A stretch of DNA of 64,000 nucleotides from Rhodococcus sp. OK519 (GTDB lineage Bacteria > Actinomycetota > Actinomycetes > Mycobacteriales > Mycobacteriaceae): contig NZ_QAOW01000001.1 in NCBI RefSeq assembly GCF_003051005.1, forward strand, positions 62,001 through 126,000, given 5' to 3'. The position numbers and the translations under genes were made by a program. The notes below the pieces were generated by a model that was not told the origin of the DNA, made no database searches, and saw nothing but the letters and a program-made list of their open reading frames with translations. Shown here piece after piece: positions 1 to 55,055 of the stretch (positions are counted from its first letter, which is position 1; each line of letters begins with the position of its first letter).

Positions 1-1290
1 GAGCCCACGGAGCAGCTCGGGACCATTCCGGCGCCGCTGATCGAACATGCCGAGCAGATCGGGTTTCCCGTAGTTCTCCTGCGTCATCGGGTGCCGTTCG
101 TGCAGATCTGCGAGAGCATCAACAGCCAGCTCTCCGACTCCTCACTACGCAGACTGCAGATTGCGGACCGGATGTCGCGGGTGCTGTCCGCGTCGATCGA
201 GGAACCCGCAGCGGTGGACGCGATCCTCGCGGCGCTGAGCCGGGAAACGCGTTCCGAGGTGACGTTGAGGTCGATGTCGGGTGAGTCGATCGGCCGGGCC
301 GGACCCGTGCTCGCGCACGACGCGGTCACCGCATTCGATGCACCCGTCGCGTTCGGCGGTACCGTCGTCGCGACGTTGACCCTGTTCCCGGCGCACGACG
401 CCGACATCTATCTGATCAGCGCGGGAATCGAGCGTGCACCGGAGATCCTGGCCATCGCGCTGCTCAGCACCCGGCCGCCGACAACGGAGGAACGACTGCG
501 CACGCGCTTCTTCTCCCTCCTCACGACAGCGGACCATCCGCCTTCCGACCTGTTCGTGCAGCTCGACGGGATCGCCGAACGGCTGGGCCTCGCGGCGGAC
601 AGCGCCTATCTCTCGCTGCTGGTGGAGTACGACGACGAGGTGTCGATCGGGATGGTGCAGGCCGCCGTCGAGGCGTCCAGCCGGACGCACATCGGCCAAC
701 TGGTGGGGAAGGAGTATCTGGCGGTTCTCGAGTTCGACCGATGGACCACGATGGAAACAGAACGGGCGCAGTTGATGTCGAGACTGGTGCGGGGCCCGTC
801 GCGCGCTCGGTCTGTCGTGGTCGGCCCCGGTGCCAGGAACCGGCACGGAATCCGGCAATGCATGGCGGAGACCAGAACCACGCGCTCCTTGCACCGCGAG
901 CACAGCGACGGCGCGGTGTTCGACGCCCGGGATTACGCTGTGGCGCGGCTGTTGACCGGGCTGCCCGACGACGGCACGCTCGCCGACTTCGTCGACGACC
1001 AGATCGGTGAGTTGCTGCGCCGCGACCGGGAGCGCCACGGCGAGCTGTTCGAGACGTTGCTCGCGTACGTGACCAACTGGGGGAGCAAGACCGAGACGGC
1101 GCGGGCACTCGGGATCCAGCGGCAGACCCTCTACCAGCGGCTGGACCGACTGCTCGCCGTGCTGGGACCGCTGCCTGCGGGATCGGCCCGTATCCCGGGC
1201 GTGGTGACCGCGGTGTTCCTCGAGCACGCCGCGCGACAACGCCGCGGGGCCCCACCGTCGCAGCGACGGCGGGGCGCCGGGCGAGGGTGA
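1..1290 (+). CDS. PucR-family transcriptional regulator (5' end outside window)
   Basis: The reading frame is open from base 1, so the start lies upstream of the window. The first visible residues (GFPVVLLRHRVPFVQI) fit the end of the PucR N-terminal ligand-sensing domain. The C-terminus (about residues 350-405 of the visible part) carries the PucR-type HTH_30 domain, KTETARALGIQRQTLYQRL. PucR proteins are soluble activators or repressors of nitrogen-compound catabolism such as purines and amines. It ends 6 bases from the convergent glxD, so it may control the neighbouring amine genes; that link is inferred from position only. The last residues are a basic, low-complexity tail. Confidence 0.85.
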   Translation, partial: EPTEQLGTIPAPLIEHAEQIGFPVVLLRHRVPFVQICESINSQLSDSSLRRLQIADRMSRVLSASIEEPAAVDAILAALSRETRSEVTLRSMSGESIGRAGPVLAHDAVTAFDAPVAFGGTVVATLTLFPAHDADIYLISAGIERAPEILAIALLSTRPPTTEERLRTRFFSLLTTADHPPSDLFVQLDGIAERLGLAADSAYLSLLVEYDDEVSIGMVQAAVEASSRTHIGQLVGKEYLAVLEFDRWTTMETERAQLMSRLVRGPSRARSVVVGPGARNRHGIRQCMAETRTTRSLHREHSDGAVFDARDYAVARLLTGLPDDGTLADFVDDQIGELLRRDRERHGELFETLLAYVTNWGSKTETARALGIQRQTLYQRLDRLLAVLGPLPAGSARIPGVVTAVFLEHAARQRRGAPPSQRRRGAGRG

Positions 1291-1296
1291 GGCGTC

Positions 1297-2622
1297 TCAG
1301 AGCTGTCCCGGAATCCAGGTCGTTCCGGCCAGGGGCACCCGAGCCATGGCCGACGCCTCGATGGTCAGCGCGACGAGGTCCTGCGGTTCGAGGTTGCGCA
1401 GGTGCGACTTGCCGCACGCGCGGGCGAGAGTCTGGGCCTCCATCGTCAGCACTCGCAGGTAGTTCGCGAGCCGGCGTCCGCCCTCGACCGGGTCGAAGTT
1501 CTTCTGCAACTCCGGATCCTGCGTCGTGATGCCGGCGGGGTCGAGTCCGGCCTGGAAGTCGTCGTAGAAGCCGGCCGACGACCCGAGCGCCTCGTACTGC
1601 TTCTGGAAACGAGGGTGGTTGTCGCCCAGCGCGATCAGGGCCGCGGTGCCGATCGCCACCGCATCCGCGCCGAGGGCCATTGCCTTCGCGACGTCGGCGC
1701 CCGAGCGGATGCCGCCGGAGACGATGAGCTGGACCCCGCCCGGTGTCCGGTGCACACCCATCTCCTGCAGAGCCTGCACCGCCTGCGGGATCGCGGCCAG
1801 CGTCGGGATGCCGACGTGCTCGATGAACACGTCCTGCGTGGCCGCCGTGCCGCCCTGCATGCCGTCGACCACGACAACGTCGGCGCCGGCCTTCACCGCG
1901 AGCTTGACGTCGTAGTACGTGCGGGTGGCGCCGACCTTGACGTAGATCGGCTTCTCCCAGCCGGTGATCTCGCGGAGTTCGATGATCTTGATGGCGAGGT
2001 CGTCCGGCCCGGTCCAGTCGGGGTGGCGGCACGCGCTGCGCTGGTCGACGCCGACCGGAAGCGTGCGCATGCCGGCGACCCGGTCGGTGATCTTCTGGCC
2101 CAACAGCATTCCGCCGCCACCCGGCTTGGCGCCTTGGCCCAGCACGATCTCGATGGCGTCGGCCTTGCGGAGGTCGTCGGGGTTCATGCCGTACCGCGAC
2201 GGCAGGTACTGGTAGACCAGGTGCTTGGACTGGCCGCGCTCCTCGGGCGTCATGCCGCCGTCGCCGGTCGTGGTGGAGGTGCCGACCTCGCCGGCCCCGC
2301 GCCCGAGGGCCTCCTTCGCCCGCCCGGACAGCGCGCCGAAGCTCATGCCCGCGATGGTGATCGGGATATCCAGGTGCAGTGGGTGCTTCGCGTGCCGATC
2401 GCCGAGCACGATGTCGGTGTCGCAGCGTTCGCGGTAGCCCTCGAGCGGGTAGCGGGACATCGAGGCCCCGAGAAACAGCAGGTCGTCGAAGTGCGGGAGT
2501 CTGCGCTTGGCGCCCCAGCCGCGGATGTCGTAGATGCCGGTCTCGGCGGCGCGCTGGATCTCGTGGATGACGTCGCGGTCGAACGTCGCGGATTCGCGCA
2601 GACCGGGGGTGTGCGTGGTCAT
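1297..2622 (-). CDS. glxD: FMN-binding glutamate synthase-like subunit (GlxD / candidate N-methylglutamate synthase large subunit MgsC)
   Basis: The 441-residue protein matches the FMN/Fe-S synthase domain of glutamate synthase as a stand-alone subunit. Visible signatures are MSFGALSGRAKEALGRGA, GQGAKPGGGGMLLGQKI, KVGATRTYYDVKLAVKAGAD and GGIRSGADVAKAMALGADAV, which form the FMN-binding barrel. The ATG at 2622 is chosen because AGGAGG lies just upstream; a longer frame to 2883 runs into glxC and is not supported. It is the last gene of the glnT-glxB-glxC-glxD cluster, 25 bases after glxC. By homology it transfers the gamma-glutamyl amide nitrogen, or methylamine from gamma-glutamylmethylamide, to 2-oxoglutarate. 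The methylamine version is inferred from context. Confidence 0.88.
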   Translation of the reverse strand: MTTHTPGLRESATFDRDVIHEIQRAAETGIYDIRGWGAKRRLPHFDDLLFLGASMSRYPLEGYRERCDTDIVLGDRHAKHPLHLDIPITIAGMSFGALSGRAKEALGRGAGEVGTSTTTGDGGMTPEERGQSKHLVYQYLPSRYGMNPDDLRKADAIEIVLGQGAKPGGGGMLLGQKITDRVAGMRTLPVGVDQRSACRHPDWTGPDDLAIKIIELREITGWEKPIYVKVGATRTYYDVKLAVKAGADVVVVDGMQGGTAATQDVFIEHVGIPTLAAIPQAVQALQEMGVHRTPGGVQLIVSGGIRSGADVAKAMALGADAVAIGTAALIALGDNHPRFQKQYEALGSSAGFYDDFQAGLDPAGITTQDPELQKNFDPVEGGRRLANYLRVLTMEAQTLARACGKSHLRNLEPQDLVALTIEASAMARVPLAGTTWIPGQL

Positions 2623-2647
2623 GGGGGCCTCCTGGGGATGGCGCGCG

Positions 2648-3346
2648 TCAGTACGCTGCGGCGTTGTCGACGTGGAAGTTGTAGAGCGTGCGGGCCGAGC
2701 CGTAGCGGGTGAACTCGGCGGGGTCGGCGTCGAATCCGGCGGCGTCCAGGAGTTCCCGCAACTCGGCCAGGTGTTCGACGCGGATCTCCTTCTTGATGCA
2801 GTCGGCGCCCAGCGAGGCGACGGTGCCGCGCACGTAGATGCGGGCCTCGTACAGCGAATCACCCAGCGCTTCACCGGCGTCACCGAGGACGACGAGCCGT
2901 CCGGCCTGGCCCATGAAGGCGCTCATGTGGCCGATGCTGCCGCCGACGACGATGTCGACGCCCTTCATCGAGATGCCGCAGCGGGCGGCGGCGTTGCCCT
3001 CGATGACGAGCAGACCGCCGTGTGCGGTGGCCCCCGCGGACTGCGACGCGTCGCCGGTGACGTGGACGCTGCCGGACATCATGTTCTCGGCGACGCCGAC
3101 ACCGGCGTTGCCGACGATCGTGACGCTCGCGTGCTGGTTCATGCCGGCCGCGTAGTAGCCGACGTGCCCCTCGACGCGTACGTCGATGGGTGCGTCCAGT
3201 CCGCACGCGAGGGCATGTGCGCCGGCCGGTTCGACGACGGTGACCGACACCGGGGCCGTGGTTGACTGCAGGGCCGCGTTGAGGGTGCGGGTGCCGATGG
3301 ATGAGACGTCGTACATGGTGGTCGGGACGGCGGTCAGCGGTGCCAT
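2648..3346 (-). CDS. glxC: GXGXG-repeat glutamate synthase subunit (GlxC / candidate MgsB)
   Basis: The 232-residue protein corresponds to the C-terminal right-handed beta-helix of glutamate synthase as a separate subunit. Repeated glycine-rich turns are visible, for example GNAGVGVAENMMSG, GNAAARCGISMKG and LGDAGEALGDSLYEAR. The ATG at 3346 overlaps the glxB stop by 13 bases, which suggests translational coupling. In N-methylglutamate synthase this is the beta-helix subunit that holds the complex together. No catalytic residues are expected here. It should act in the cytoplasm with GlxB and GlxD. Confidence 0.85.
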   Translation of the reverse strand: MAPLTAVPTTMYDVSSIGTRTLNAALQSTTAPVSVTVVEPAGAHALACGLDAPIDVRVEGHVGYYAAGMNQHASVTIVGNAGVGVAENMMSGSVHVTGDASQSAGATAHGGLLVIEGNAAARCGISMKGVDIVVGGSIGHMSAFMGQAGRLVVLGDAGEALGDSLYEARIYVRGTVASLGADCIKKEIRVEHLAELRELLDAAGFDADPAEFTRYGSARTLYNFHVDNAAAY

Positions 3347-4230
3347 ACGTAAACCTCTTCCGGTTCCGGTTCGAAGATGCGGGCGGCGGCGATACCGGGC
3401 AGTCCGGCGAGCGCGCGGTACTCGGACGCCATCGCGACGTAGTCGCGGTGTTCGGCGATGATCGCGGGCTTGCACGCGATCGGGTCGCGCACCACGGCGA
3501 ACGAGTCCTGTGTGGACACGAGCAGTGTGTAGAAGCCGTCGAACCGTTCGCCGAGCAGACGCAGGGCCTTCTCCAGGTCGACGCCCTCGGCGAGTTGCTT
3601 CGCGACGAAGCGGGCGCCCACCTCGGTGTCGTTCTCGCTGTCGAACGCAACGCCCTCGGCCTCGAGTTCACGCTTGATGCTCAGATGGTTGGAGAACGAG
3701 CCGTTGTGTACCAGGCACTGATCGGGGCCCACTGCGAACGGGTGCGAACCCGCTGCGGTGACGGCGGATTCGGTCGCCATGCGGGTGTGCGCGACGCCCT
3801 GCCAACCCGAGGCGGCGGGCAGCCCGAACCGGTGGGCGAGGTCCACCGGATCACCCATGCCCTTGAGTACCGTGACGTCGTCGCCGAACCCGATGAGGAT
3901 CGCGTCCGGCGCCTCGCCGAGTGCCGCATCCGCGAGCGCCGGCGCCGGAACCGGGGCGTGCAGAAGCGTGTTCGTGCCCACTTCGATGCCGGCCACGGCG
4001 ACACCCAGCGCACTGCCGACTGCGGTGGCCAGCGACTCCGCCGGGACGCCGACGCCCAGCAGCGACACCGTCGCGTGCGCTGCCGGAGACCACGTCGGGT
4101 CCCCGTAGATGGCCATGCCGGCCGAGTCCGGTCCGCGGTCGACCATCTGGTCGAGCATCCCGGTGAGCAGCTCACCGAGATGCGGATACAGCGAAGGCTC
4201 CCGCAGATGGAGCCCGACGATTCCGCACAT
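3334..4230 (-). CDS. glxB: Class II glutamine amidotransferase subunit (GlxB / candidate MgsA)
   Basis: The 298-residue protein begins MCGIVGLHL, which places the nucleophile Cys2 of Ntn amidotransferases at the mature N-terminus. Further class II residues appear in DRGPDSAGMAIYGD, THTRMATESAV, HPFAVGPDQCLVHNG and ENDTEVGARFVAKQL. The start at 4230 is fixed by the catalytic Cys2. It lies 28 bases after glnT and overlaps glxC. Known role of the family: release of ammonia (or methylamine from gamma-glutamylmethylamide) that is channelled to GlxC/GlxD. Which substrate is used cannot be read from the sequence. Confidence 0.88.
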   Translation of the reverse strand: MCGIVGLHLREPSLYPHLGELLTGMLDQMVDRGPDSAGMAIYGDPTWSPAAHATVSLLGVGVPAESLATAVGSALGVAVAGIEVGTNTLLHAPVPAPALADAALGEAPDAILIGFGDDVTVLKGMGDPVDLAHRFGLPAASGWQGVAHTRMATESAVTAAGSHPFAVGPDQCLVHNGSFSNHLSIKRELEAEGVAFDSENDTEVGARFVAKQLAEGVDLEKALRLLGERFDGFYTLLVSTQDSFAVVRDPIACKPAIIAEHRDYVAMASEYRALAGLPGIAAARIFEPEPEEVYVWHR

Positions 4231-4258
4231 GTGTTGTCTCCCTTGATTCCTGTGGCTG

Positions 4259-5614
4259 TCAGAAGGCGGTGAGGTAGCTGTCCACCTCCCACGGTGTGAC
4301 CGTGCTGTGCCATTCGAAGAATTCGTCCCGCTTGAGCGCGGCGAAGTAGTCGGCGACGCCTGCTCCGGCGGCATCGAGAGCTCCGGTGACGACGCTGTCC
4401 CGGGCCATCGCGTCCATCGCGTGCAACAGCGTCATCGGCAGGTCGTCGGGGCAGATGCCGCCGCCGGGCTCGCCCGGATCGGTGCCGCGGCGGATGCCGT
4501 CGAGCCCGGCCGCGATCGTCACGGCCGACGCGAGATACGGGTTGGCCGAGCCGTCCCCACCGCGCAGTTCGACGCGATTGGCGTCCGGCACCCGCAGGTA
4601 GTGGGTCCGGTCGTTGCCGCCGTACGTGGGCCGGCGCGGAGACCACGTCGCGCCGGTGCTCGTCGAGAGGGCGCCGGTTCGCTTGTAGGAGTTGACCGTC
4701 GGAGCGAGCACACCCTGGAGGCCGCCGGCGTGCTCGAGGATGCCGCCGATGAACGCATACGCGGTGGGGGACAGGCCCAGCCCGCGCGGGTCGGCGCGGT
4801 CGGGGAAGACGGGGTCGCCGCCGCGCCACAGCGACAGGTGCATGTGCATGCCGTTGCCGGTTCGGTCGGCGAACGGTTTGGGCATGAACGTCGCGGTCAT
4901 GCCGCGCTGTTCGGCGAGCACCGAGATGAGGTAGCGGAGGGTGACGACACGGTCGGCGGTGGTGAGGGCGTCGGCGTACTGGAAGTTCTGCTCGAACTGG
5001 CCGTTGCCGTCCTCGTGGTCGTTGGCGTAGTTGCCCCAGCCCAACTGGTTCATCGCGGCCGAGATCGCGGTGAGGTGCTCGTACATGCGGGTGACGTCGC
5101 GGGCGTCGTAGCAGGGGCGGCGGGAGGTATCGAGAGTGTCGGCGGTGCGGAGGCCTCCGCGTTCGTCGCGGTCGACCAGGAAGTACTCGATCTCGGTGCC
5201 GACGTTGACATCCAGGCCGAGGTCGGCGGCCTGCTCGAGCACCGTCTTCAGGATCACGCGTGGCGCGAAGGGCCACGGCTCGCCCTGGACGTGCGGATCA
5301 CAGTGCACCAGTGCGAGACCGGGGCGCACGAACGGAATGGGAGTGAACGACGCGGCATCGGGGACGGCGACGAGATCGGGGTCCTTCGGGACCTGGCCCA
5401 TCGCCCCGGCCGCGTATCCGGCGAAGCCGACGCCGTCCTCCTGGAGTTCCTCCACTGCCTCGACGGGAACGAGTTTGGCGCACGGCTTCCCGGCGAGGTT
5501 GGTGAACACCGCCAGGATGAATCGGGTGTCGGTGGCGCGAGCGAGGGTCGCGAGATCGGGGGTGTCCGCGCCGGGCAGGCACATCACGGTGAGGTCTGCG
5601 GGGTCGAGCGCCAT
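4259..5614 (-). CDS. glnT: Type III glutamine synthetase-like enzyme; candidate gamma-glutamylmethylamide synthetase (GlnT/GmaS)
   Basis: The 451-residue ligase carries glutamine synthetase motifs in order: GTEIEYFLVDRD (metal/ATP site), DRTGNGMHMHLSLW (the glycine/HxH motif), PTVNSYKR and NRVELRGGDGSANPYLA. The length fits GlnT/GmaS enzymes. The ATG at 5614 has GAGGAG 6 bases upstream. It heads a minus-strand operon with glxB, glxC and glxD. GmaS and GlnT are close relatives: the first joins methylamine to glutamate, the second ammonia. The divergent N-demethylase operon and the split synthase subunits favour GmaS, but this is an inference. Expression probably starts in the 281-base divergent region. 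Confidence 0.85.
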   Translation of the reverse strand: MALDPADLTVMCLPGADTPDLATLARATDTRFILAVFTNLAGKPCAKLVPVEAVEELQEDGVGFAGYAAGAMGQVPKDPDLVAVPDAASFTPIPFVRPGLALVHCDPHVQGEPWPFAPRVILKTVLEQAADLGLDVNVGTEIEYFLVDRDERGGLRTADTLDTSRRPCYDARDVTRMYEHLTAISAAMNQLGWGNYANDHEDGNGQFEQNFQYADALTTADRVVTLRYLISVLAEQRGMTATFMPKPFADRTGNGMHMHLSLWRGGDPVFPDRADPRGLGLSPTAYAFIGGILEHAGGLQGVLAPTVNSYKRTGALSTSTGATWSPRRPTYGGNDRTHYLRVPDANRVELRGGDGSANPYLASAVTIAAGLDGIRRGTDPGEPGGGICPDDLPMTLLHAMDAMARDSVVTGALDAAGAGVADYFAALKRDEFFEWHSTVTPWEVDSYLTAF

Positions 5615-5679
5615 GTGAACTCCTCGTGTTCCGACGAACGTTTCCTTAAGTGAATCGGTGTTGCATGTCAGGAAACATA

Positions 5680-5696
5680 GCATCCGTGACGGATGC
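5680..5696. promoter_or_regulatory. Perfect dyad in the glnT/cupin divergent promoter region
   Basis: GCATCCGTGACGGATGC is an 8-base perfect inverted repeat around one central G. It sits 66 bases upstream of the glnT start in the only non-coding stretch (5615-5895) between the two divergent operons. It is a strong operator candidate; the PucR regulator at the window start is one possible ligand. Around 5789-5818 there are also GTTAC and GTAAC half-sites that resemble, but do not match in spacing, GlnR boxes. Confidence 0.45.
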
Positions 5697-5895
5697 ATTA
5701 CGGCCGGGTGAGGTTGTCGTGACGTCTTCACGCGGGGTGCTGTTCTCGGAGGATCGTGCGGAAATCGCAGCGGGCAAGGAGGATTCGGTTACAAGGATTA
5801 ACCGCCGCGTAACTGCGATGCGGGTTTCACCTCACTATCGTGCGTTTCACGCCAGCGATCGGCGTTCTCTCCCGACTTCCATCCGAGGAGCAGTC

Positions 5896-6273
5896 ATGTC
5901 CGAGACGACCACCACGCCCGCGTTCCGGGTCACCGCCGGCTTCTGGAAGTCGCTCCCGCAGATGCCGCTGGACGAGTTCCCCGGCACCAGGGGCTACATC
6001 GCCGACGTGCACCCCAACCCCGAGGGTTCGGCGATGGCTTCCGGCTACTTCGAGCTGCTCCACACCGAGGCACCTCTGGACTACGTCTACGAATACGACG
6101 AGATGAAGGTGGTGCTGGACGGCGAGTTGCGCCTCGAGAATCTCGATACCGGGCAGGTCGAGGTGGCCGGGCCGCGGGACGCGATCTTCTTCCCGGCAGG
6201 TTCGCGGATCCGCTTCACGACGCCCGATCGGGCGCTGGCGTTCTATGTCGGCCTGCGTTCGTTCGCGCCGTAG
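5896..6273 (+). CDS. Small cupin-domain protein, first gene of the N-demethylase operon
   Basis: The 125-residue protein has a single cupin fold. The conserved parts are EYDEMKVVLDGELRLEN (first cupin motif region) and GPRDAIFFPAGSRIRFTTPD (second motif). It resembles EutQ-like cupins rather than histidine-rich dioxygenase cupins: few metal-ligand histidines are visible, so it may bind a ligand rather than catalyse. The ATG at 5896 has GAGGAG 6 bases upstream; a longer frame from 5650 would run through the promoter region. It begins a tight plus-strand operon with the DmmA-like, reductase and DUF3445 genes. Its precise function is not known to me. Confidence 0.75.
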   Translation: MSETTTTPAFRVTAGFWKSLPQMPLDEFPGTRGYIADVHPNPEGSAMASGYFELLHTEAPLDYVYEYDEMKVVLDGELRLENLDTGQVEVAGPRDAIFFPAGSRIRFTTPDRALAFYVGLRSFAP

Positions 6274-6282
6274 GGGTCTGCG

Positions 6283-6801
6283 ATGAGCGTGTGTATGGAG
6301 ACCACGAGTGTGCCGCGGTGGGGCATGGGGACGACCGGGACCGCCGACAGTGGACGGTACGTCACCGTGCTGTCGTTCGGCGCCGCCGCCGAGCCGAGGG
6401 CCCGTGCGCTGGTCACCGGACTGAGCGGTCGTCGGGTCAGTTGGCTGCGGATGCCGCCTGGCTGGACCTCCGGCGCCCAGGCGGTGCTGGGCCGCGAACT
6501 TGCTGCCGCCCGCGTGGGCTGGAGACTCGCGCTCGTCGGCGATGAGGTGACGGTGTTGCAGGCGCGCGCGTGTGCGGTCGAGGCTGGAGCGCTTTCGGAG
6601 GAGATTCTCGCCGACGTCGTGGGCGTCGACCTGCGGCGTGTCTACTGCGCGCACTGCCACCGGATCCATGCGACCGGTGCCGTCGTAGGCGGGACCAGTG
6701 CGTGTCCGTCGTGCGGGACGAACCTGATGATTCATCACCACGTTTCGCGACTGCGCAGTGCCTACCTCGGCTACCTGTACGACGCGGAGGAATGCCGATG
6801 A
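6283..6801 (+). CDS. Zinc-ribbon DmmA-like subunit of dimethylamine monooxygenase / oxidative N-demethylase
   Basis: The 172-residue protein has an alpha/beta N-terminal region and a C-terminal zinc ribbon formed by CAHCH and CPSCG, about 22 residues apart. This architecture matches the small DmmA-like subunit that accompanies haem-dependent oxidative N-demethylases. It begins 10 bases after the cupin stop. Its TGA overlaps the ATG of the reductase (ATGA), so the subunits are probably made in step. Its role in the complex is probably structural or in electron transfer. Subunit names differ between published systems, so no symbol is given. Confidence 0.72.
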   Translation: MSVCMETTSVPRWGMGTTGTADSGRYVTVLSFGAAAEPRARALVTGLSGRRVSWLRMPPGWTSGAQAVLGRELAAARVGWRLALVGDEVTVLQARACAVEAGALSEEILADVVGVDLRRVYCAHCHRIHATGAVVGGTSACPSCGTNLMIHHHVSRLRSAYLGYLYDAEECR

Positions 6802-7745
6802 GAATGCTGGTTGTCGATGCCGTCACCGATCTCACCGATGGCGTGCGACAGATCGGATTGACCGCCCCCGACGGCGGTTCACTGCAGTCGTTCACGCCCG
6901 GCAGCCACGTCGTGGTGTCCTGCGGGATCGACCGGCAGGGGCATGCGCGTCGCAACGCCTACTCCCTCACCGGCGCCGGAATCGTGCCCGACGCCTACTC
7001 GATCTCGGTGCGCCGCTGCGACGCCGGACGTGGCGGTTCGCTGTGGATGCACGGCCTCAGTGTGGGGGAGAGCGTCGAGGTCACCGGGCCGCGCAGCGGA
7101 TTCGCACCAGTTCTCACCGCGCGCCATCATGTCCTCGTCGCCGGCGGCATCGGGGTTGCGCCGATCCTGTCGCACGCGCGGGCGGCGGCGCGGTGGGGCC
7201 GGTCGTTCGAGGTTCACTACGTGTCGCGGGGCGGCGACGGACCGCACCTGGCGGATCTCGCCGCGGTGTGCGCGGAGCGACTGACGACCTATCGCGACGC
7301 TGAGGCATTGTGGACTGCGCTCGGTCCGGCCCTGCTCGACCGTCCGCTCGGATCCCATCTCTACACCTGTGGGCCCGCATCGCTGATGGAGGAGGTGGAC
7401 CGCCGCGCATCGTCAGCCGGCTGGCCTGGCGCTCGAATACATCACGAGCACTTCGGCATCGGCGACCTCGAACCCGGACGTCCGTTCGTTGCGCGGCTCT
7501 CCCGTTCGGGCCTCGACGTGGAGGTGCCGTCCGGGACGAGTCTGCTCGACGCCCTCGTACGGCGCGGGGTGAGCGTCCCGAACCTGTGCCGACAGGGCGT
7601 GTGCGGTGAGTGTCGCACCCCCGTCGTCGGGGGTGTGGTGGAGCACCGAGACCTGTATCTGTCCGATGACGAGAAAATGGCGGGCGACTGCATGATGCCG
7701 TGTGTGTCCCGCGCCGCCGGATCACGATTGGAGCTGGAACTGTGA
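6798..7745 (+). CDS. Phthalate-dioxygenase-type reductase (flavin, NAD(P)H and plant-type [2Fe-2S]) of the N-demethylase
   Basis: The 315-residue protein has the PDR order: flavin-binding barrel (RRNAYSLTGAG), NAD-binding domain (VLVAGGIGVAPILSHAR, YTCGPASLMEEV) and C-terminal ferredoxin (CRQGVCGEC followed about 29 residues later by CMMPC). It passes electrons from NAD(P)H through flavin to the [2Fe-2S] cluster and then to the haem subunit. The ATG at 6798 is chosen because GGAGG lies 7 bases upstream; an earlier in-frame ATG at 6792 is too close to that site. Start and stop both overlap the neighbours by 4 bases. Confidence 0.86.
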   Translation: MRMLVVDAVTDLTDGVRQIGLTAPDGGSLQSFTPGSHVVVSCGIDRQGHARRNAYSLTGAGIVPDAYSISVRRCDAGRGGSLWMHGLSVGESVEVTGPRSGFAPVLTARHHVLVAGGIGVAPILSHARAAARWGRSFEVHYVSRGGDGPHLADLAAVCAERLTTYRDAEALWTALGPALLDRPLGSHLYTCGPASLMEEVDRRASSAGWPGARIHHEHFGIGDLEPGRPFVARLSRSGLDVEVPSGTSLLDALVRRGVSVPNLCRQGVCGECRTPVVGGVVEHRDLYLSDDEKMAGDCMMPCVSRAAGSRLELEL

Positions 7746-8707
7746 GCACAGCAATGGATTACCGGGTGCCCGCTCGGGTCACGTCCTTTCCCTTTCCGTT
7801 CCCGCGGGATGCCTACCGCTACAGCGCCAACGTCGAACCTGCCGGCGAACACGTCGTCGACGTCGGGGTGAACTATCGGACCGAGATCGCCGAGCGGGAA
7901 CGGATTCTCGCTGCCGACCCCACGCGCTTCCAGGCCCTGCCGCACATGGAGATCGCGCAGTGGGACGCGATGCTCGAGATCATGCAGCACCTCGCCGACG
8001 CGTACCCCCGCACCATGATGCTCGAGCGAGACGGTGGCATGTGGCGTTGGACCAACTGCGCGCTGGACGTCGAGCAGGCATTCGTCTACGGCGTGCGGTC
8101 GACGCTTCCTGAGTCGCCGCTGCGCTACATCGGTCGGCAGATCCAGGAGGACGTCGTCCTGCTCGATCAGCGCGAGGGGCAACTGTGGGGCGACGCCGGG
8201 CTGGTGACCTTCGCCGCCGACTGGTCGCTGCGGTTCGACGTCGGGATGAGCTTCCTGCAGATCCACGGCCCGGTGCCGCGAATCCACACGGAGGGCATCG
8301 TCACGCGTGCACAGAACTTCCTGATGCGACTCGAGACCGGGGAGCGTTACCGGCGCACCAACTGGACGCTCACCGTGGACGGCCGACTCGATACCTCCAC
8401 CGAGACCTACCCGGAGTGGGGACGCGACCGGCGCACGCTCGCCGAGGGGCCACTCGCCGACGTGGGGGAGCGATTGCATTTGCGGGTCGAGGTGCAACAC
8501 CTGATTCGGCTCGGGCAGTCCGGCGCGATCATGTTCCTCGTCCGCACGCACCTGCTGCCGTTCGCCGAGATCGCGCTGGTTCCGGAGTGGGCGCGGCGCC
8601 TGCGGTCGGTGCTGGTGGAACTGCCCGAGGACATGGCCGAATACAAGGGCATCACCCGCACCCGCCGCCCGGGCATCGACTGGCTCGACCGGTACGCCCC
8701 CGCCTGA
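7742..8707 (+). CDS. DUF3445 haem-dependent oxidative N-demethylase catalytic subunit (candidate dimethylamine monooxygenase)
   Basis: The 321-residue protein matches the DUF3445 family, whose characterised members are PAS-fold haem enzymes that demethylate secondary amines such as dimethylamine, giving methylamine and formaldehyde. Recognisable stretches are PFPFPRDAYRYSANVEPA, VNYRTEIAERERIL, WRWTNCALDVEQAFVYG and RQIQEDVVLLDQREGQLWGD. The GTG at 7742 overlaps the reductase stop (GTGA) and has GGAG 8 bases upstream; ATG 7754 is an alternative. It closes the operon. The physiological substrate is inferred from the family and from the methylamine-type neighbours. Confidence 0.82.
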   Translation: MSTAMDYRVPARVTSFPFPFPRDAYRYSANVEPAGEHVVDVGVNYRTEIAERERILAADPTRFQALPHMEIAQWDAMLEIMQHLADAYPRTMMLERDGGMWRWTNCALDVEQAFVYGVRSTLPESPLRYIGRQIQEDVVLLDQREGQLWGDAGLVTFAADWSLRFDVGMSFLQIHGPVPRIHTEGIVTRAQNFLMRLETGERYRRTNWTLTVDGRLDTSTETYPEWGRDRRTLAEGPLADVGERLHLRVEVQHLIRLGQSGAIMFLVRTHLLPFAEIALVPEWARRLRSVLVELPEDMAEYKGITRTRRPGIDWLDRYAPA

Positions 8708-8711
8708 TCCC

Positions 8712-8769
8712 GTGGCCACCGAATGTCACATGCGTTCAGTCCGACTGGACGCGTGTGACATTCGGCCAC
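8712..8769. terminator. Large imperfect hairpin between convergent operons
   Basis: The arms start GTGGCC and contain GAATGTCACA; the far arm reads TGTGACATTC then GGCCAC. A 3-base bulge interrupts the left arm, and the middle (CAGT-CCG-ACTG) can form its own stem. It fills nearly the whole 71-base gap between the N-demethylase gene and the convergent hydrolase gene. A two-way rho-independent terminator without a U tract is the simplest reading. Confidence 0.6.
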
Positions 8770-8778
8770 GCAAGAGGA

Positions 8779-9441
8779 TCAGTTGCCCCGGGCGATCCAC
8801 TCCTCGAGGTGCGGCGACTCGGTGCCGAGAGCGGTGTCGTCGCCGTGACCGGTGTGGACGCGGGTCTCCGCCGGCAGGGCGAACAGCTTGTCGCGGATCG
8901 ACCCGATGATGGTCGGGAAGTCCGAGAACGAGCGTCCGGTGGCGCCCGGGCCACCCGAGAACAGGGTGTCGCCGGAGAACAGCTCGCCCGCCTCGGGCAG
9001 GTACAGGCATGTCGAGCCGGGGGAGTGGCCGGGGGTGTGGATGGCCTGGATGTCGGTGCCCGCCACAGTGATCCGCTGTCCGTCCTCGAGCGCCAGATGG
9101 CGGACGCCCGGGTGGGTCATCTGCCACAGCACGTCGTCGGCCGGGTTCAGGTAGATCGGAGCGTCGAGCTTCTCGGACAGTTCCGGTGCGACGGTGACGT
9201 GGTCGTTGTGGCCGTGCGTGCACACGATCCCGACCACCTTGCGGCCGCCGACGGCGTCGATGATCGGTTGTGCGGTGTGCGCGGCGTCGATCACCACCAC
9301 CTCGTCGTCGTCACCGACGAGCCAGATGTTGTTGTCGACGTCCCAGGTGCCACCGTCGAGCTCGAACGTGCCCGACGTGACGACCCGGTCGACCCGGAGA
9401 CGGTTTCGATCCCCCGCCGTTCCGCTCGTCCCGCCGCTCAC
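8779..9441 (-). CDS. Metallo-beta-lactamase-fold hydrolase paired with mscR; candidate S-formylmycothiol hydrolase
   Basis: The 220-residue protein has the MBL metal motif THGHNDH, a later TPGHSPGST histidine, GDTLFSGG and a final HTGHGDDT. It resembles glyoxalase II-type hydrolases. The GTG at 9441 overlaps the mscR stop by 4 bases (GTGA), so the two are translated together. The same pair is found in M. tuberculosis (Rv2259-Rv2260). Hydrolysis of S-formylmycothiol made by MscR is a reasonable role but is inferred from context. It converges with the N-demethylase operon, the likely source of formaldehyde. Confidence 0.8.
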
Positions 9442-10526
9442 AGGACCACCACCGAACGCAGCACCTCGCCGCGGTGCATGGTCTCGAACGCCTGCTCCAC
9501 GTCCTCGAGCTTGATCCGCTCGGTCACGAACTTCTCGAGCGGCAGACGACCCTGCTGGTACAGATCGACGAGCATCGGGAAGTCGCGCTCGGGCAGGCAG
9601 TCGCCGTACCACGACGACTTGAGCGAGCCGCCGCGCGAGAAGAAGTCGACCAGCGGCATCTCGAGCGTCATGTCCGGGGTGGGAACGCCGACGAGGACGA
9701 CGGTTCCCGCCAGGTCGCGGGCGTAGAACGCCTGCTTCCAGGTTTCCGGGCGGCCGACGGCGTCAACCACGACGTCCGTGCCGAAGCCGTCGGTGAGTTC
9801 CTGGATGGCTTCCACGACGTCGTCGACCTTCGACGCATCGATCGTGTGGGTGGCACCGAGCTCGACGGCCCACTCGAGCTTCTTCGGGTCCCGGTCGATC
9901 GCGATGATCTTGTTGGCGCCGGCGAGGCGCGAACCCATGATCGCGGCGTCGCCGACGCCGCCGCAGCCGATGACGGCCACCGAGTCGCCGCGCGTGACGT
10001 TGCCGGTGTTCATGGCGGCACCCATGCCGGCCATGACACCGCACCCGAGCAGGCCGACGACGGCAGGATCGGCGGTGGGGTCGACCTTGGTGCACTGGCC
10101 GGCCGCGACCAGGGTCTTGTCGGCGAACGCGCCGATGCCGAGGGCCGGAGTCAGCTCGGTGCCGTCCTCGAGGGTCATCTTCTGCTTGGCGTTGTGGGTG
10201 TCGAAGCAGTACTGCGGACGACCGCGCTTGCAGGCGCGACACTTTCCGCACACCGCGCGCCAGTTGAGTACGACGAAGTCGCCGACCTCGACGGTGTCGA
10301 CACCCTCACCGACGGCCTCGACGATGCCCGCGGCCTCGTGGCCGAGAAGGAACGGGAACTCGTCGTTGATGCCGCCGTCGCGGTAGGTCAGGTCGGTGTG
10401 GCAGACGCCGCACGCCGCGATCGCGACGACGGCCTCACCCGGTCCGGGATCGGGGATCGTGATGTTCACGAGTTCGACGGGCGCATCCTTCGAGCGGGCG
10501 ATGACGCCCCGTACCTGCTGCGGCAT
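9438..10526 (-). CDS. mscR: Mycothiol-dependent formaldehyde dehydrogenase / S-nitrosomycothiol reductase
   Basis: The 362-residue zinc alcohol dehydrogenase has the catalytic zinc motifs [12 protein letters not shown] and GHEAAGIVE, the structural zinc cysteines [15 protein letters not shown] and the NAD-binding [10 protein letters not shown]. Length and sequence fit MscR/AdhE2, which oxidises S-hydroxymethylmycothiol formed from formaldehyde. The ATG at 10526 has a GTGGAG site upstream; the frame extends to 10607 without a better start. It is coupled to the downstream hydrolase gene. A 133-base gap separates it from the co-directional LuxR gene and should hold its promoter. Confidence 0.92.
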
Positions 10527-10659
10527 GGTTTCTCCACTCCATTCGGTCGACGTGAACGCACGGGCACACACATGGTGGCGTGTGCATCCGACTACGAGGG
10601 TAGTCACCGGCGGTGCGCGTCGGGACTGGTCGACCGGAGAGGTGGACCTGGCCGAACGG

Positions 10660-11922
10660 TCAGGCGATGGGGCGGATACCGGCTTCGCCGCCCAGCGCGG
10701 CCGCTTCCGCGCGGGTAGCGACGTCGAGTTTGCGTAGGACGCCTGCGACGTGGAACTTCACGGTGCTCTCGCTGACGCCGAGACGTTCGGCAATGGCGCG
10801 GTTGCGCCGCCCCGCGACGAGGTGCCCGAGCACCTCTGCTTCACGCGGGGCCAGGTCCGCAAGCGCGTGATGCGATGTGGGCGTGGACGGTGCATGTGCT
10901 GGAAGAACCGCGACCACACGCGTGCCCCATCCGTCGGTGGCTTCGATTTCCACTGTTCCCGAGAGTGTTTCGACACGCGGGCGCAACTGTCGATCGAGAT
11001 CGTCGGCGTCGGCCAGGCCATGGCCGTCACCCCGGACGTCGACGGTCAGGCCGGCCTCCGTACACGTCCACGCCACGCGGATGCGCGTGACGTCGGCTTG
11101 CCCCGACATCGCGAGAACCGCGCCCCGGGCGACGGCTCGCGCCGCGTGCGCCACTTCGCCGGGAACCGTGCTACCGGCCGAATGTGGCTCCACCAGAGTC
11201 ACATCCAGGTCGCGGTGCCTCAGCAGGCCACGCAACTCGCCGCGCAGTCGCGCGAACGCGGTGACGACGGATTCCTCCGAGAACTCGCGGTGCGAGTCCA
11301 CAGCTGTGCGCAGCTTGATCAGTGCCGACGACGCCGTCTCCCGTGCCGCCGTACGCGCACGTGAATCGTCGAGATCGTCGGATCGCAGTGTCGACAGCAG
11401 CGTCTCGAGCGTCGTGGCGTGCACCTCGGTGAGCTCGGCAATGGTGCGGGCACGCTCGGCTGAAGCAGCGCGAGACTCCGCGAGGTAGGCCGGGCTCGCG
11501 CCCTGTACCTGCAACTGGATGCCGGTCGCGACGATGCCGAACATCGACCGGACGGTCTCGAGTACCGGCGCCCGAGTCGGTGCGCCGGGCGGGACGATCA
11601 CGAGCAGGGTGTCGGAGCGGTCCAAGATCGCGTACACCTCGCGCGGCCCGCCGGCGATCCCGGCACGTCCACGGAAGATCTGTCCATGCTCGAGACCGGC
11701 TCGCAGAGAGTCCAATTCGGCGATCGTGACGCGGTCGACGATGGCGGGGTCCCCGGCAACCTTCCGGGGCCGGCCCGTGCACTCGCGCGTGAAGATCACC
11801 AGCGCGGTATGCGGGACGGTGTCGGCGAGAATCGCCGAGAACCGGCGTCCGATGTCGGACAGACGGCCGACCAGCACGTTGCGCAGGCCGTCCAGTACGG
11901 CTTCGGTTCCGATCTCGCTCAC
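10660..11922 (-). CDS. LuxR-type regulator with a degenerate sensor-kinase (HATPase-like) segment
   Basis: The 420-residue protein ends in a LuxR/NarL HTH ([20 protein letters not shown], then [19 protein letters not shown]). Before it, about residues 245-350, lies a HATPase_c-like stretch ([37 protein letters not shown]). The preceding helical part (about 150-235) sits where a HisKA_3 domain would be, but no ELHD-type phospho-acceptor histidine is visible. The N-terminus resembles a sensor module. The GTG at 11922 is the likely start. A kinase-like sensor fused directly to a DNA-binding domain is unusual; the ligand and targets are unknown. Confidence 0.78.
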
Positions 11923-52231: not shown

Positions 52232-53191
52232 ATGATTGAAGTGAGGGGACTGACGAAGACCTACGGGTCGACGAAAGCGGTGGACGATCTCACGTTCTCC
52301 GTGAAGCCGGGAATCGTCACCGGCTTCCTCGGACCGAACGGTGCCGGCAAGTCGACGACCATGCGCATGATCCTCGGCCTGGACACGCCGACGTCGGGTA
52401 CTGCGCTGGTCGAGGGGGTTCCGTACCACCAGCTCAAGCAGCCGTTGCGCACGGTCGGCGCGTTGCTCGACGCCAAGTGGGTGCACCCCAACCGTTCGGC
52501 CAAGGCGCATCTGCAGTGGATGGCCGCGGCCAACTCGCTGCCGATGTCGCGCGTCGACGAGGTGCTGCGCCTGGTGGGCTTGAGCGAGGTCGCGGGCAAG
52601 AAGGCCGGCGGATTCTCGCTCGGCATGTCGCAGCGACTGGGCCTGGCGGGCGCGCTGCTGGGCGATCCGAAGGTCCTGTTGTTCGACGAGCCGGTCAACG
52701 GTCTCGACCCGGAGGGCATTGTCTGGATCCGCAAGTTCATGCAGAGTCTCGCCGCCGAGGGCCGCACGGTGCTGGTCTCCAGCCACCTGCTGTCGGAGAT
52801 GTCGCTCACCGCCGAGCACCTCGTCGTGATCGGGCGCGGGCGCCTCATCGCCGACGTCAGCGTCAAGGACTTCGTCGACCGCGCCTCCGATTCGGCGGTG
52901 CGGGTGCGCAGCCCCCAGCTCGACGCACTTCGCGGTGTGCTCACCGCGCAGGGCTTCGCCGTCCACGAGGATCCGGGCGCCGATCACCAGCCCGCGCTGC
53001 TGGTGGCGGGTGCGCGCACCGACGAGGTCGGTGCCCTCGCCGGAGCCAACGGCATCGTGCTGCACGAATTGGCGTCGAAGCAAGGCTCGCTCGAAGAGGC
53101 ATTCATGAAGCTCACCGGTGACGACGTGCAGTACCACGCGCAGATCGCCGGTCAGCCGGCCGCGCAGAACATGGGAGGTGCGCTCCGATGA
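52232..53191 (+). CDS. ABC transporter ATP-binding protein
   Basis: The 319-residue ATPase has Walker A (GPNGAGKSTTMRMI), the signature FSLGMSQRLGLAGALLG, Walker B with LLFDEPVNGLDPEG and the H-loop SSHLLSEMS. A C-terminal extension of about 90 residues resembles those of drug or lantibiotic-type exporters. The ATG at 52232 is chosen; GTG 52223 is possible. It overlaps the permease gene by 4 bases. Confidence 0.92.
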   Translation: MIEVRGLTKTYGSTKAVDDLTFSVKPGIVTGFLGPNGAGKSTTMRMILGLDTPTSGTALVEGVPYHQLKQPLRTVGALLDAKWVHPNRSAKAHLQWMAAANSLPMSRVDEVLRLVGLSEVAGKKAGGFSLGMSQRLGLAGALLGDPKVLLFDEPVNGLDPEGIVWIRKFMQSLAAEGRTVLVSSHLLSEMSLTAEHLVVIGRGRLIADVSVKDFVDRASDSAVRVRSPQLDALRGVLTAQGFAVHEDPGADHQPALLVAGARTDEVGALAGANGIVLHELASKQGSLEEAFMKLTGDDVQYHAQIAGQPAAQNMGGALR

Positions 53192-53940
53192 GCGTGTTGA
53201 ATGCAGAGCGCATCAAGCTCACGTCCACCAAGTCGCCCCTCTGGTGCAGCCTCATCGCCGTCGTGGTGAGCGTCGGATTCGCGGCGATCATGGGTGTGGC
53301 CTACAAGTCGACGGTCGAGTCGGGAGACACCTCGTTCGGCGAGTTCTCGGTAGCCCTGACCCAGGCGGGCGCCGCGCAGTTCGGCGCCATGCTCGTGATG
53401 ATCATGTCGGCGCTGGCGGTCACCACCGAGTACCGGTTCGGCGTTATCCGCACGACGTTCCAGGCGATCCCCAACCGCACCCAGGTGATCGGTGGCAAGG
53501 CCCTGCTCTTGGCGATCGTCGCGGCTGTTCTCGGACTGATCATCGCGCTGCTGTCGTTCACGGTGGGTCAGGCGACGTCGGGCCTGTCGCTGTCGATCGG
53601 CGACGGCAGCAATGCTCGTGAACTGTTCGGCATTCCGATCTACTTTGCGCTGCTGGCGGTGCTCGCGGTGGGGGTGGGCACGCTGATCCGTCAGTCGGCC
53701 GGTGCCATCTCGTTGCTGCTGCTGTGGCCGCTGGTGATCGAGAGCCTCGCGACGATCATCCCGAAGGTGGGCAAGTACGTCGGCGAGTTCGGGCCGTTCA
53801 ACAATGTGTCGTACTTCCTCGGCAGCGGTGGGGGTTTCGACTTCCACTGGGGTCCGTGGGGCGGCCTGCTCTACTTCGCGGCGTTCGTCGCGATCGTGTT
53901 CGGTGCCGCACTGTTCGTGGTGAACAAGCGCGACGCCTGA
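53188..53940 (+). CDS. ABC transporter permease
   Basis: The 250-residue protein has six membrane helices in the ABC-2 arrangement, starting with the cytoplasmic LNAERIKLTSTKSPLWCSLI and a large loop after helix 1 (TVESGDTSFGEF). It pairs with the ATPase gene just upstream (ATGA overlap). The export substrate is unknown; a terminator follows the gene. Confidence 0.88.
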   Translation: MSVLNAERIKLTSTKSPLWCSLIAVVVSVGFAAIMGVAYKSTVESGDTSFGEFSVALTQAGAAQFGAMLVMIMSALAVTTEYRFGVIRTTFQAIPNRTQVIGGKALLLAIVAAVLGLIIALLSFTVGQATSGLSLSIGDGSNARELFGIPIYFALLAVLAVGVGTLIRQSAGAISLLLLWPLVIESLATIIPKVGKYVGEFGPFNNVSYFLGSGGGFDFHWGPWGGLLYFAAFVAIVFGAALFVVNKRDA

Positions 53941-53950
53941 GTCTCCCGCT

Positions 53951-53988
53951 CGAAGCGCCCGGTCGAAGTCTTTCGGCCGGGCGCTTCG
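53951..53988 (+). terminator. Terminator hairpin after the ABC permease gene
   Basis: A 12-base perfect stem (arm CGAAGCGCCCGG) with a 14-base loop lies 11 bases after the permease stop and before the GlxA-type regulator gene. Confidence 0.8.
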
Positions 53989-54023
53989 GCTATCTTCGGC
54001 CTTGACGACGGGAGGGTGACTCG

Positions 54024-55055
54024 ATGCGGATCGGGGTGCTGGCCTACGAGGGCTGTCTGGCAGCGGAGATCTTCGTGTTCACCGACCTGCTCCGAATCGC
54101 CAATCGTGTTGCGCGCGAGACGGGTGTGGCGACCGAGGATCCGTTCCGGGTGTCGGTGATCGCAGCGTCGTCCGACCCTGTCGCGGCGGCGGGAGGCTTT
54201 CCGATCGGCGCCGAGCGTTGGCACCACCGGTTCGATCGGTTGATCGTTCCCGGCTTCGAACTGGTCCCGTCCGAGGATCTCGCCGTACGACTGGAAGCCC
54301 GACGACGCGAGACGAACTTCTTGGCGGCGGCAGGAGACCGGGGAACTCGGATCGCCTCGGTGTGCGTCGGCGCGTTCCTGCTGGGGGAGGCCGGCCTGCT
54401 CGACGGGCGGCGGGTCACCACGTCGTGGCTCTTCGCGTCGCACCTGGCGCGGCGCTACCCGCGGACGATCGTGTGCCCCGAGGCGCTGATCGTCACCGAC
54501 GGGACGGTCACCACGACGGCGGCGTTCAGTGCCGCGCTGGATCTCGCGACCGCGCTGGTCCGGGAACATCTCGGCGACGACATCGCCCGCGCCACCGCGC
54601 GGATCACGCTGGTGGCCGAGAACCGGACCAGCCAGGCCCCGTACATCGTCGATTCGATGCTGCCGTCGGCGCGCAGACCGTTCGCGGACGAGGTGGGGGC
54701 GTGGCTGGTGGAGCGTCTCGCCGAACCGTACGACCTGGGCCGCCTCGCCGACGCGTTCCACGTGAGTACCCGGACGCTGCTGCGGCGCTTCGGGGCCGAG
54801 ACGGGGCGCTCTCCCCTCGACTTCCTCCGTGGGGCACGGGTGCGGGCGGCGCGGAACCTGCTCGAGACCACCGACCTGCCGCTGGCCCGTGTCATCGAAC
54901 GTGTCGGGTACCGGGATGCCGGCACGTTCCGGCGCCTGTTCGTCGAGCAGGTGGGGATGAATCCGGCCGACTACCGCCGCAAGTTTCGTGGCGATGCAGC
55001 CACCATGGGTGGCGATGTCGCCTCTCCCCGGCGAGCCGGGGCCCGGACAGACTGA
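54024..55055 (+). CDS. GlxA-family transcriptional regulator (DJ-1/PfpI domain plus AraC HTH)
   Basis: The 343-residue protein has an N-terminal DJ-1/PfpI-like domain (GVLAYEGCLAAEIFVFTDLL, IASVCVGAFLLGEAGLLDG with the conserved cysteine) and a C-terminal AraC/XylS domain (LADAFHVSTRTLLRRFGAETG, RVGYRDAGTFRRLFVEQVG). Such regulators sense small metabolites, with the first domain as ligand pocket. The downstream dienelactone-hydrolase gene, 34 bases away, is a likely target. Confidence 0.9.
   Translation: MRIGVLAYEGCLAAEIFVFTDLLRIANRVARETGVATEDPFRVSVIAASSDPVAAAGGFPIGAERWHHRFDRLIVPGFELVPSEDLAVRLEARRRETNFLAAAGDRGTRIASVCVGAFLLGEAGLLDGRRVTTSWLFASHLARRYPRTIVCPEALIVTDGTVTTTAAFSAALDLATALVREHLGDDIARATARITLVAENRTSQAPYIVDSMLPSARRPFADEVGAWLVERLAEPYDLGRLADAFHVSTRTLLRRFGAETGRSPLDFLRGARVRAARNLLETTDLPLARVIERVGYRDAGTFRRLFVEQVGMNPADYRRKFRGDAATMGGDVASPRRAGARTD

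Follow-up and report, generated by a model that had tools for sequence, protein, structure and literature searches.

In Rhodococcus sp. OK519, a block of genes at positions 1297–10526 of the window analyzed here (64,000 nucleotides, positions 62,001–126,000 of contig NZ_QAOW01000001.1, which is contig C1 of genome G000 in our numbering) probably encodes an actinomycete variant of the dimethylamine monooxygenase and N-methylglutamate pathway, serving mainly for nitrogen. Methylated amines serve widely as a source of nitrogen, a use best known from proteobacteria. In the proposed pathway, DmmABC, with a haem DUF3445 subunit fed by a phthalate dioxygenase reductase (PDR)-type reductase, would convert dimethylamine to methylamine and formaldehyde; GmaS would join methylamine and glutamate with ATP; and MgsABC would pass the methylamino group on to 2-oxoglutarate to yield N-methylglutamate and glutamate. 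A single-gene flavin adenine dinucleotide (FAD) oxidoreductase encoded outside the window, in the place of MgdABCD, would then most likely return N-methylglutamate to glutamate and formaldehyde, and formaldehyde would leave via mycothiol through the action of MscR. Gene identities, gene order, recurrent linkage, diagnostic residues and the absence of a SoxD-type subunit are observed; from these we infer all substrates and the order of the steps.

A sequence-only reading of the window had already joined these parts into a dimethylamine nitrogen pathway. Gene identities, the assignment of GmaS, the linkage of the two gene sets and the role of mycothiol have stood up, but completeness within the window has not. 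Every gene named in that reading is an open frame at its position, and Pfam and NCBIfam profile searches, by which gene families were assigned, back the identities of the cupin, the DmmA-like protein, the PDR reductase, DUF3445, Mgs, GmaS, MscR and the MBL-fold protein; the start codons used here were chosen among several possible. The block is kept in two sibling genomes, at 88% DNA identity over 1297–10998 in one (L039) and at 86–91% with one 178-base stretch missing in the other (L038), and is therefore no chance reading.

The ligase and the N-methylglutamate synthase genes

The ligase gene gmaS (4259–5614, reverse strand; elsewhere annotated glnT) encodes a gamma-glutamylmethylamide synthetase-type protein that scores 600 bits on TIGR03105 (cut-off 470). 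It is followed on the same strand by three genes for N-methylglutamate synthase-like subunits, each with a homolog in the dmm-mgs locus of Rhizobium etli: the mgsA-like glutamine-amidotransferase subunit (3334–4230; GATase_6 61 bits, PF13522/PF13537; 49% identity to R. etli), which starts MCG and thus carries a Cys after the start Met; the mgsB-like GXGXG subunit (2648–3316; PF01493 44 bits; 64%); and the mgsC-like, FMN-binding glutamate-synthase-type subunit (1297–2622; PF01645 Glu_synthase 300 bits; 77%).

The nearest solved structure to the ligase is RhGmaS (7cql; 398 bits, 47% identity), while identity to the type I glutamine synthetase (GSI) of the same genome is 35%. The ATP-, glutamate-, Mg2+- and methylamine-binding residues of RhGmaS have been described, and ammonia-using glutamine synthetase (GS) is reported to carry Asp and Glu where RhGmaS has Ala48 and Trp300 (PMC7948447). 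In an alignment of 110 rows, the ligase agrees with RhGmaS at 13 of 14 binding or catalytic positions, both of those that distinguish GmaS from ammonia GS among them. Ala and Trp occupy these two positions in the ligase and in all five rows of the genus, Asp and Glu in its own GSI and in 7tdp; the ammonia-GS signature (Asp50' and the Glu of the Glu-flap) was thus not found in the ligase in this alignment.

Phylogeny points the same way. In an unrooted tree, the ligase, RhGmaS and the R. etli protein named GlnT share one side of a branch, 105 rows in all (SH-aLRT 98), and the rows outside it are GSI, two GSIII paralogs (L063 and L064) and 9qur, the last being next outside with a support of 58; the tree was built by a quick method and carries a long-branch warning among these outside rows. 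The loci sampled included an 80-locus set, the best 80 of at least 591 confirmed ligase candidates, and the other tree and alignment rows came from separately collected loci. Placement among GmaS and GlnT proteins had been suggested as a check, with grouping beside GlnT counting against the methylamine role, and the ligase does group with RhGmaS, apart from GSI. The GlnT side of that comparison proved non-discriminating: the R. etli protein has all 14 RhGmaS residues, and its gene is part of a dmm-mgs locus with sarcosine-oxidase-type (mgd-like) genes next to it. Residues and tree together uphold the earlier assignment of the ligase as GmaS and not an ammonia GS.

An ordinary ammonia-assimilating pair, GlnT with a split glutamate synthase lying beside dmm by chance, would agree with the library name "type III glutamate--ammonia ligase" and with an ammonium transporter in the vicinity (L057). 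AmtB-type proteins also transport methylammonium. We regard such a pair as improbable, since the ligase is of GmaS type at both ammonia-site positions where its own GSI is not, belongs to the RhGmaS clade from which GSI is excluded, and has HODM, FAD or Mgd-like genes as its recurring neighbors. The two GSIII paralogs outside the clade represent a second subfamily that scores over the TIGR03105 cut-off, is found without mgs genes and differs from RhGmaS at 3 of the 14 positions (Thr, Ser, Asp); the name of the model therefore spans more than one group.

The proposed dimethylamine step and its link to GmaS-Mgs

The dmm operon diverges from gmaS across a gap of 281 bases, given the chosen starts, and is read on the forward strand. 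Its first gene (5896–6273; PF06249 44 bits) encodes a small EutQ-type cupin and occupies the place of proteobacterial dmmD. It is followed by dmmA (6283–6801; NF041259 102 bits, cut-off 60; PF22289), dmmB (6798–7745), a PDR-type reductase with a Fer2 [2Fe-2S] domain that scores 161 bits to phthalate dioxygenase reductase 2pia, and dmmC (7754–8707), a DUF3445/HODM haem oxidative N-demethylase alpha subunit (PF11927, HODM_asu-like, 214 bits, cut-off 25) that matches the haem subunit of HODM 5lte with 325 bits over query residues 5–316. The dmmA and dmmB frames overlap by 4 bases with the chosen starts.

For the DIMETHYLAMINE step, the gene order DmmA-PDR-DUF3445 and the 4-base A/B overlap are the same as in dmmDABC of Paracoccus aminophilus pAMI6, where mutation in any of the four dmm genes is reported to have abolished growth on dimethylamine (PMC4543880). 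Identity to the P. aminophilus proteins is 32% for DmmA (over 100 amino acids), 38% for DmmB and 48% for DmmC. In Escherichia coli, dmmABC of Ruegeria pomeroyi alone is described as turning dimethylamine into methylamine (PMC5520151).

The operon differs from its proteobacterial counterparts at its head. Among 27 dmm loci with long flanks (23 actinobacterial, 3 proteobacterial and 1 cyanobacterial), compared at a threshold of 100 bits, a match to the GcvT-like DmmD was found in none of the 23 actinobacterial loci, and none was found in the window. An EutQ-type cupin of at least 100 bits accompanied 18 of the 23 actinobacterial loci, whereas the three proteobacterial loci had DmmD and no cupin; the cyanobacterial locus had neither. 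As to the five actinobacterial loci below that threshold, two have weaker cupin matches (L038, L046), one starts inside the operon (L091) and two have no match (L051, L098). The cupin in sibling locus L038 (10779–10961) is shortened and lacks the counterpart of window positions 6050–6227, while DmmA, the PDR reductase and HODM match in full, and the cupin may be dispensable there. Seven loci (L047, L048, L049, L050, L088, L090 and L093) carry two DUF3445 genes in tandem, both paired with a separate PDR-type reductase; of the two DUF3445 copies one is divergent (about 220–280 bits), which raises the question of a two-substrate or two-subunit version of the enzyme.

Linkage of the dimethylamine genes to GmaS-Mgs extends beyond the block. 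In a survey of 101 genomes of the family, scored for HODM (PF11927) and for a ligase over the TIGR03105 cut-off, HODM occurred in 16 genomes and the ligase in 21; both were present in 14, HODM alone in 2, GmaS alone in 7 and neither in 78 (Fisher 2e-10). Counted by genus, the corresponding numbers were 8, 1, 2 and 20 (p 5e-5). In 12 of the 14 genomes with both, the two lie no more than 14 kb apart (one pair at 13.1 kb), and in G027, one of the two genomes scored as HODM alone, the ligase is matched in part, at 291 bits, below the cut-off. The connection of DUF3445 with GmaS-Mgs proposed from the window is thus borne out. It is one-sided, however, as 7 of the 21 ligase genomes have no HODM match.

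Within the genus, two relatives appear without a working dmm operon. Locus L041 (G058) has no match to window positions 5728–8718 by blastn and tblastn, and L040 (G009) retains a relic at 9680–10117, with cupin and DmmA pieces between gmaS and the MBL gene and no other dmm match. Both keep gmaS-mgs, the MBL-MscR pair and the FAD gene. Since gmaS-mgs is kept after loss of dmm, GmaS-Mgs is useful even without it, methylamine being the simplest substrate to suppose, and comparison of these loci marks dmm as a front end open to loss. The two dmm-less genus-mates that keep the rest provide a basis for a clean test.

The proposed oxidation of N-methylglutamate

The known N-methylglutamate pathway, as described for the R. 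pomeroyi system, ends with the dehydrogenase MgdABCD (PMC5520151, PMC13390433). No gene for N-methylglutamate oxidation was found within 1297–10526, and among 14 candidates scored for the SoxD-type subunit (PF04267) there was no match in the Rhodococcus sp. OK519 genome; the other three Mgd subunits were not searched genome-wide. The earlier description of the module as complete therefore has to be given up. Across the family survey SoxD occurred in 12 of the 101 genomes, 4 of the 16 with HODM and 5 of the 21 with the ligase.

A candidate for the missing step lies to the left of the window. On a Streptomyces plasmid and a Candidatus Mycobacterium methanotrophicum plasmid, a single FAD oxidoreductase gene directly follows mgsC, the row on the former being glnT-mgsABC-FAD-MscR. 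The homolog in Rhodococcus sp. OK519 is on the reverse strand at 53305–54507 of contig C1 (match 53308–54492) and its product is 53% identical to that of the Ca. M. methanotrophicum plasmid. Only two matches to this FAD family were found in the 5.28-Mb genome at E <= 0.001, one near the module and the other on contig C9. In the five genomes of the genus with GmaS, Rhodococcus sp. OK519 included, the FAD gene lies 2.4–8.8 kb from mgsC.

We examined linkage in the 80-locus set with FAD queries taken from loci outside it and a FAD threshold of 250 bits. Of the 64 loci with both gmaS and mgsC, 27 had the FAD gene, 9 had Mgd-like genes, none had both and 28 had neither, an exclusion with a one-sided Fisher value of 0.0045, not corrected for kinship. 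Among the 48 loci over 17 kb the numbers were 26, 5, 0 and 17. In all 27 cases the FAD gene was read in the same direction as the gmaS or mgsC closest to it, with no more than 150 bp between matched stretches in 22. Loci of further relatives include one where the FAD gene lies on the opposite strand (L047) and one, at a short contig end, with no FAD match (L054).

Affiliations of the FAD protein are compatible with the proposed step. In a tree that carries a long-branch warning and has four long outliers (L109, L111, L122 and L127), the FAD proteins are separate from the SoxB rows and divide into two groups. One, a SoxB-like clade, holds both genes of Rhodococcus sp. OK519; the second contains Streptomyces and others, with its plasmid member reaching 249 bits against the model for N-methyl-L-tryptophan oxidase (cut-off 257). 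The protein near the module scores 125 bits on the SoxB model (cut-off 529), and its best five solved relatives, at 84–128 bits, are sarcosine oxidase, three dimethylglycine dehydrogenases and glycine oxidase, a set of relatives that suits an N-methyl amino acid substrate but does not prove it. On balance we lean toward the FAD oxidoreductase as the N-methylglutamate oxidation step replacing MgdABCD, with a substrate suggested by neighbors and kin; it is the least certain step of the pathway.

The DUF3445 enzyme might instead itself demethylate N-methylglutamate, a secondary amine, and so close the cycle alone. The secondary-amine chemistry noted in the sequence-only reading, the lack of a SoxD match in the genome and the close linkage with mgs would all allow this. 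It is nevertheless very unlikely, because 7 of the 21 GmaS genomes have no HODM match and because the protein is 48% identical to P. aminophilus DmmC, which is reported to be required for growth on dimethylamine (PMC4543880). The proposal was rejected on the evidence of the two genus-mates (G058 and G009) that keep gmaS-mgs and the FAD gene but not dmm, of which G009 has relics only.

Several points weigh against the pathway favored here, in which DmmABC, GmaS-Mgs and the FAD oxidoreductase act in sequence. DmmA is weakly conserved (32–38%), and a P. aminophilus dmmD mutant is reported to have failed on dimethylamine as a carbon source (PMC4543880), while no dmmD is seen here. The single RhGmaS position at which the ligase departs falls in the ATP/methylamine pocket: of Lys30', Tyr147, Gln175, Asp177, Glu179, Glu186 and Asn188, six are identical and Gln175 is replaced by Ala, a replacement shared with nearly all actinobacterial relatives (47/47 close actinobacterial rows, 5/5 of the genus and 21/22 further actinobacterial rows) and seen in 5/29 other rows. 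The FAD gene stands 8.8 kb from mgsC, and the 28 loci with neither FAD nor Mgd in their flanks, 17 of them over 17 kb, are mostly the more distant ones. Exclusion also holds by locus and not by genome, as G028, G038, G042, G061 and G090 have SoxD elsewhere together with a FAD gene near gmaS; SoxD in these five GmaS genomes may belong to sarcosine oxidase. The FAD paralog on C9 has a flavin reductase and an M20 amidohydrolase as neighbors, so that the family serves other uses too.

The last such point is a distant amine-dehydrogenase-like cluster of the tryptophan tryptophylquinone (TTQ) type on contig C15 (L158 7238–9905), a possible other methylamine route. Methylamine might be handled mainly there, by a TTQ methylamine dehydrogenase, with Dmm and GmaS-Mgs real but N-methylglutamate made as a store or side product. 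The cluster does carry genes for a TTQ light subunit (PF02975 111 bits) and a MauD-like protein, yet both fall below their equivalog cut-offs (TIGR02659 121 of 197 bits; MauD-like 168 of 189), the neighboring large protein has no NCBIfam or Pfam family match at E <= 0.001, and many actinomycetes have the FAD gene alongside gmaS-mgs. We therefore give this division of labor little credence. Copper methylamine oxidase was dropped as a methylamine route, with no match to PF01179 in the genome.

Formaldehyde, flanking genes and related systems

Converging on the dmm operon is a reverse-strand unit of mscR (9438–10526), encoding S-(hydroxymethyl)mycothiol dehydrogenase, and an MBL-fold hydrolase coupled to it (8779–9441; PF00753 94 bits); the two frames overlap by 4 bases if the GTG at 9441 is the MBL start. 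MscR scores over its equivalog cut-off (TIGR03451, 694 bits against 513) and is the sole match in the genome at E <= 1e-120. Mycothiol synthesis is represented by MshC (TIGR03447 733 bits, cut-off 485), and together with the lack of DmmD in the 23 actinobacterial dmm flanks this agrees with the earlier view that mycothiol, not folate, is the nearby one-carbon sink. Assimilation of formaldehyde through the ribulose monophosphate (RuMP) route was dropped, as the single genome match to TIGR03128 reached 28 bits (cut-off 200). A mycothiol sink without RuMP fits, though it does not prove, use of the amines for nitrogen with their carbon burned.

Whether detoxification is built into the module, as the sequence-only reading had it, is doubtful. 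MscR does adjoin the module, but nearly every genome of the family has it (97 of 101), and of the 23 that carry GmaS or HODM only 5, every one from the genus of the window, show the adjacency. That MscR-MBL is a chance neighbor, a housekeeping pair outside the regulation of the module, is a possibility that falls just short of an even chance. In keeping with it, the flanks of the 80-locus set contain no MscR-type match above 250 bits (at a 60-bit threshold, 250 bits in L119 and 78 bits in L147 only, where true MscR exceeds 800). Set against this, the pair is kept with gmaS-mgs in all five genomes of the genus with gmaS, even after loss of dmm, and a second full adjacency exists on the Streptomyces plasmid, where MscR directly follows mgs-FAD. 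Chance neighbor or not, MscR would serve the same chemistry.

To the left of mgsC lie, in order, the FAD gene (−), an ammonium transporter (+), a MarR-type regulator (+), a periplasmic-binding-type protein (−), an XRE-cupin regulator (−), an amidohydrolase (−), a cytosine/purine-type permease (−) and PucR (+). Loci L038 and L040 match the DNA from FAD through XRE-cupin and then run into mgsC (L040 being cut inside FAD), L041 matches only the FAD-transporter and XRE-cupin parts, and in G075 the FAD gene and transporter are present (L039, L152). The amidohydrolase-permease-PucR insert occurs in Rhodococcus sp. OK519 only, among the genomes compared. PucR (window 91–1290, forward strand) was rejected as regulator of the module, since the stretch of about 4.7 kb that holds it with the permease and amidohydrolase is unmatched in L038, L040 and L041; the XRE-cupin protein is a better candidate, by position only.

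A long, near-perfect palindrome (8719–8770) separates the converging dmm and MBL-MscR units; the fold of 8705–8785 has a predicted energy of −52.7 kcal/mol (z −8.4). It is a genome repeat: with at most 2 mismatches allowed and each arm counted separately, the pattern has 12 matches at about 8 places in the genome, and a reversed control has none. Copies at 52591–52633 and 70721–70763 of contig C1 flank the FAD-to-dmm region. The dmm-less gap of L041 ends at the palindrome, and next to it L041 12052–12329 matches L057 9012–9289 (75%), DNA near the other of these two copies in the Rhodococcus sp. OK519 genome. Recombination between palindrome copies perhaps removed dmm in L041.

Beside RhGmaS and HODM 5lte, the closest known systems are three sets of genes. 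R. pomeroyi carries dmmDABC, gmaS-mgsABC and mgdABCD, as described in PMC5520151 and PMC13390433, and resembles the Rhodococcus block in DmmA, the reductase, the third Dmm subunit, GmaS, MgsABC and the adjacency of the operons; by contrast, the block has no DmmD match and its genome no SoxD marker, a cupin leads its dmm operon, a single FAD gene and MscR lie nearby, and the R. pomeroyi regulator is the AraC-type TmaR. Plasmid p42e of R. etli CFN 42 (L065) has mgsABC, glnT/gmaS and dmmABC at one locus, and in addition sarcosine-oxidase-type subunits that we read as mgdABCD, a GlxA regulator, purU-folD and a DmmD-like aminomethyltransferase; its one-carbon units would go to folate. Gma and MgsABC were reported in the genomes of Mycobacterium methylotrophs in 2015, with MgdA-D assigned and the dimethylamine step apparently ascribed to the proteins that also oxidize trimethylamine (PMC5023230). 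In view of that report the pathway as such is no novelty among actinobacteria; a complete module is of less interest here than the lone FAD gene that keeps recurring and seems to stand in for MgdABCD. Among the papers listed in literature searches, which reach few subscription titles, none was seen to report such a replacement.

It is an evenly balanced proposition that actinomycetes more widely finish the N-methylglutamate pathway with single-gene FAD oxidoreductases, and not the four-subunit MgdABCD, drawn from two FAD families (SoxB-like and N-methyltryptophan/monomeric-sarcosine-oxidase-like) and coupled to a DmmD-less, cupin-led dimethylamine monooxygenase and mycothiol-based one-carbon disposal. 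In the records of the Streptomyces and Ca. M. methanotrophicum plasmids, the first enzyme is labeled glutamate-ammonia ligase and the last is a generic FAD oxidoreductase. A recognizable actinomycete variant, together with a definite candidate for the missing enzyme, would improve the reading of Rhodococcus, Nocardia, Mycolicibacterium and Streptomyces genomes.

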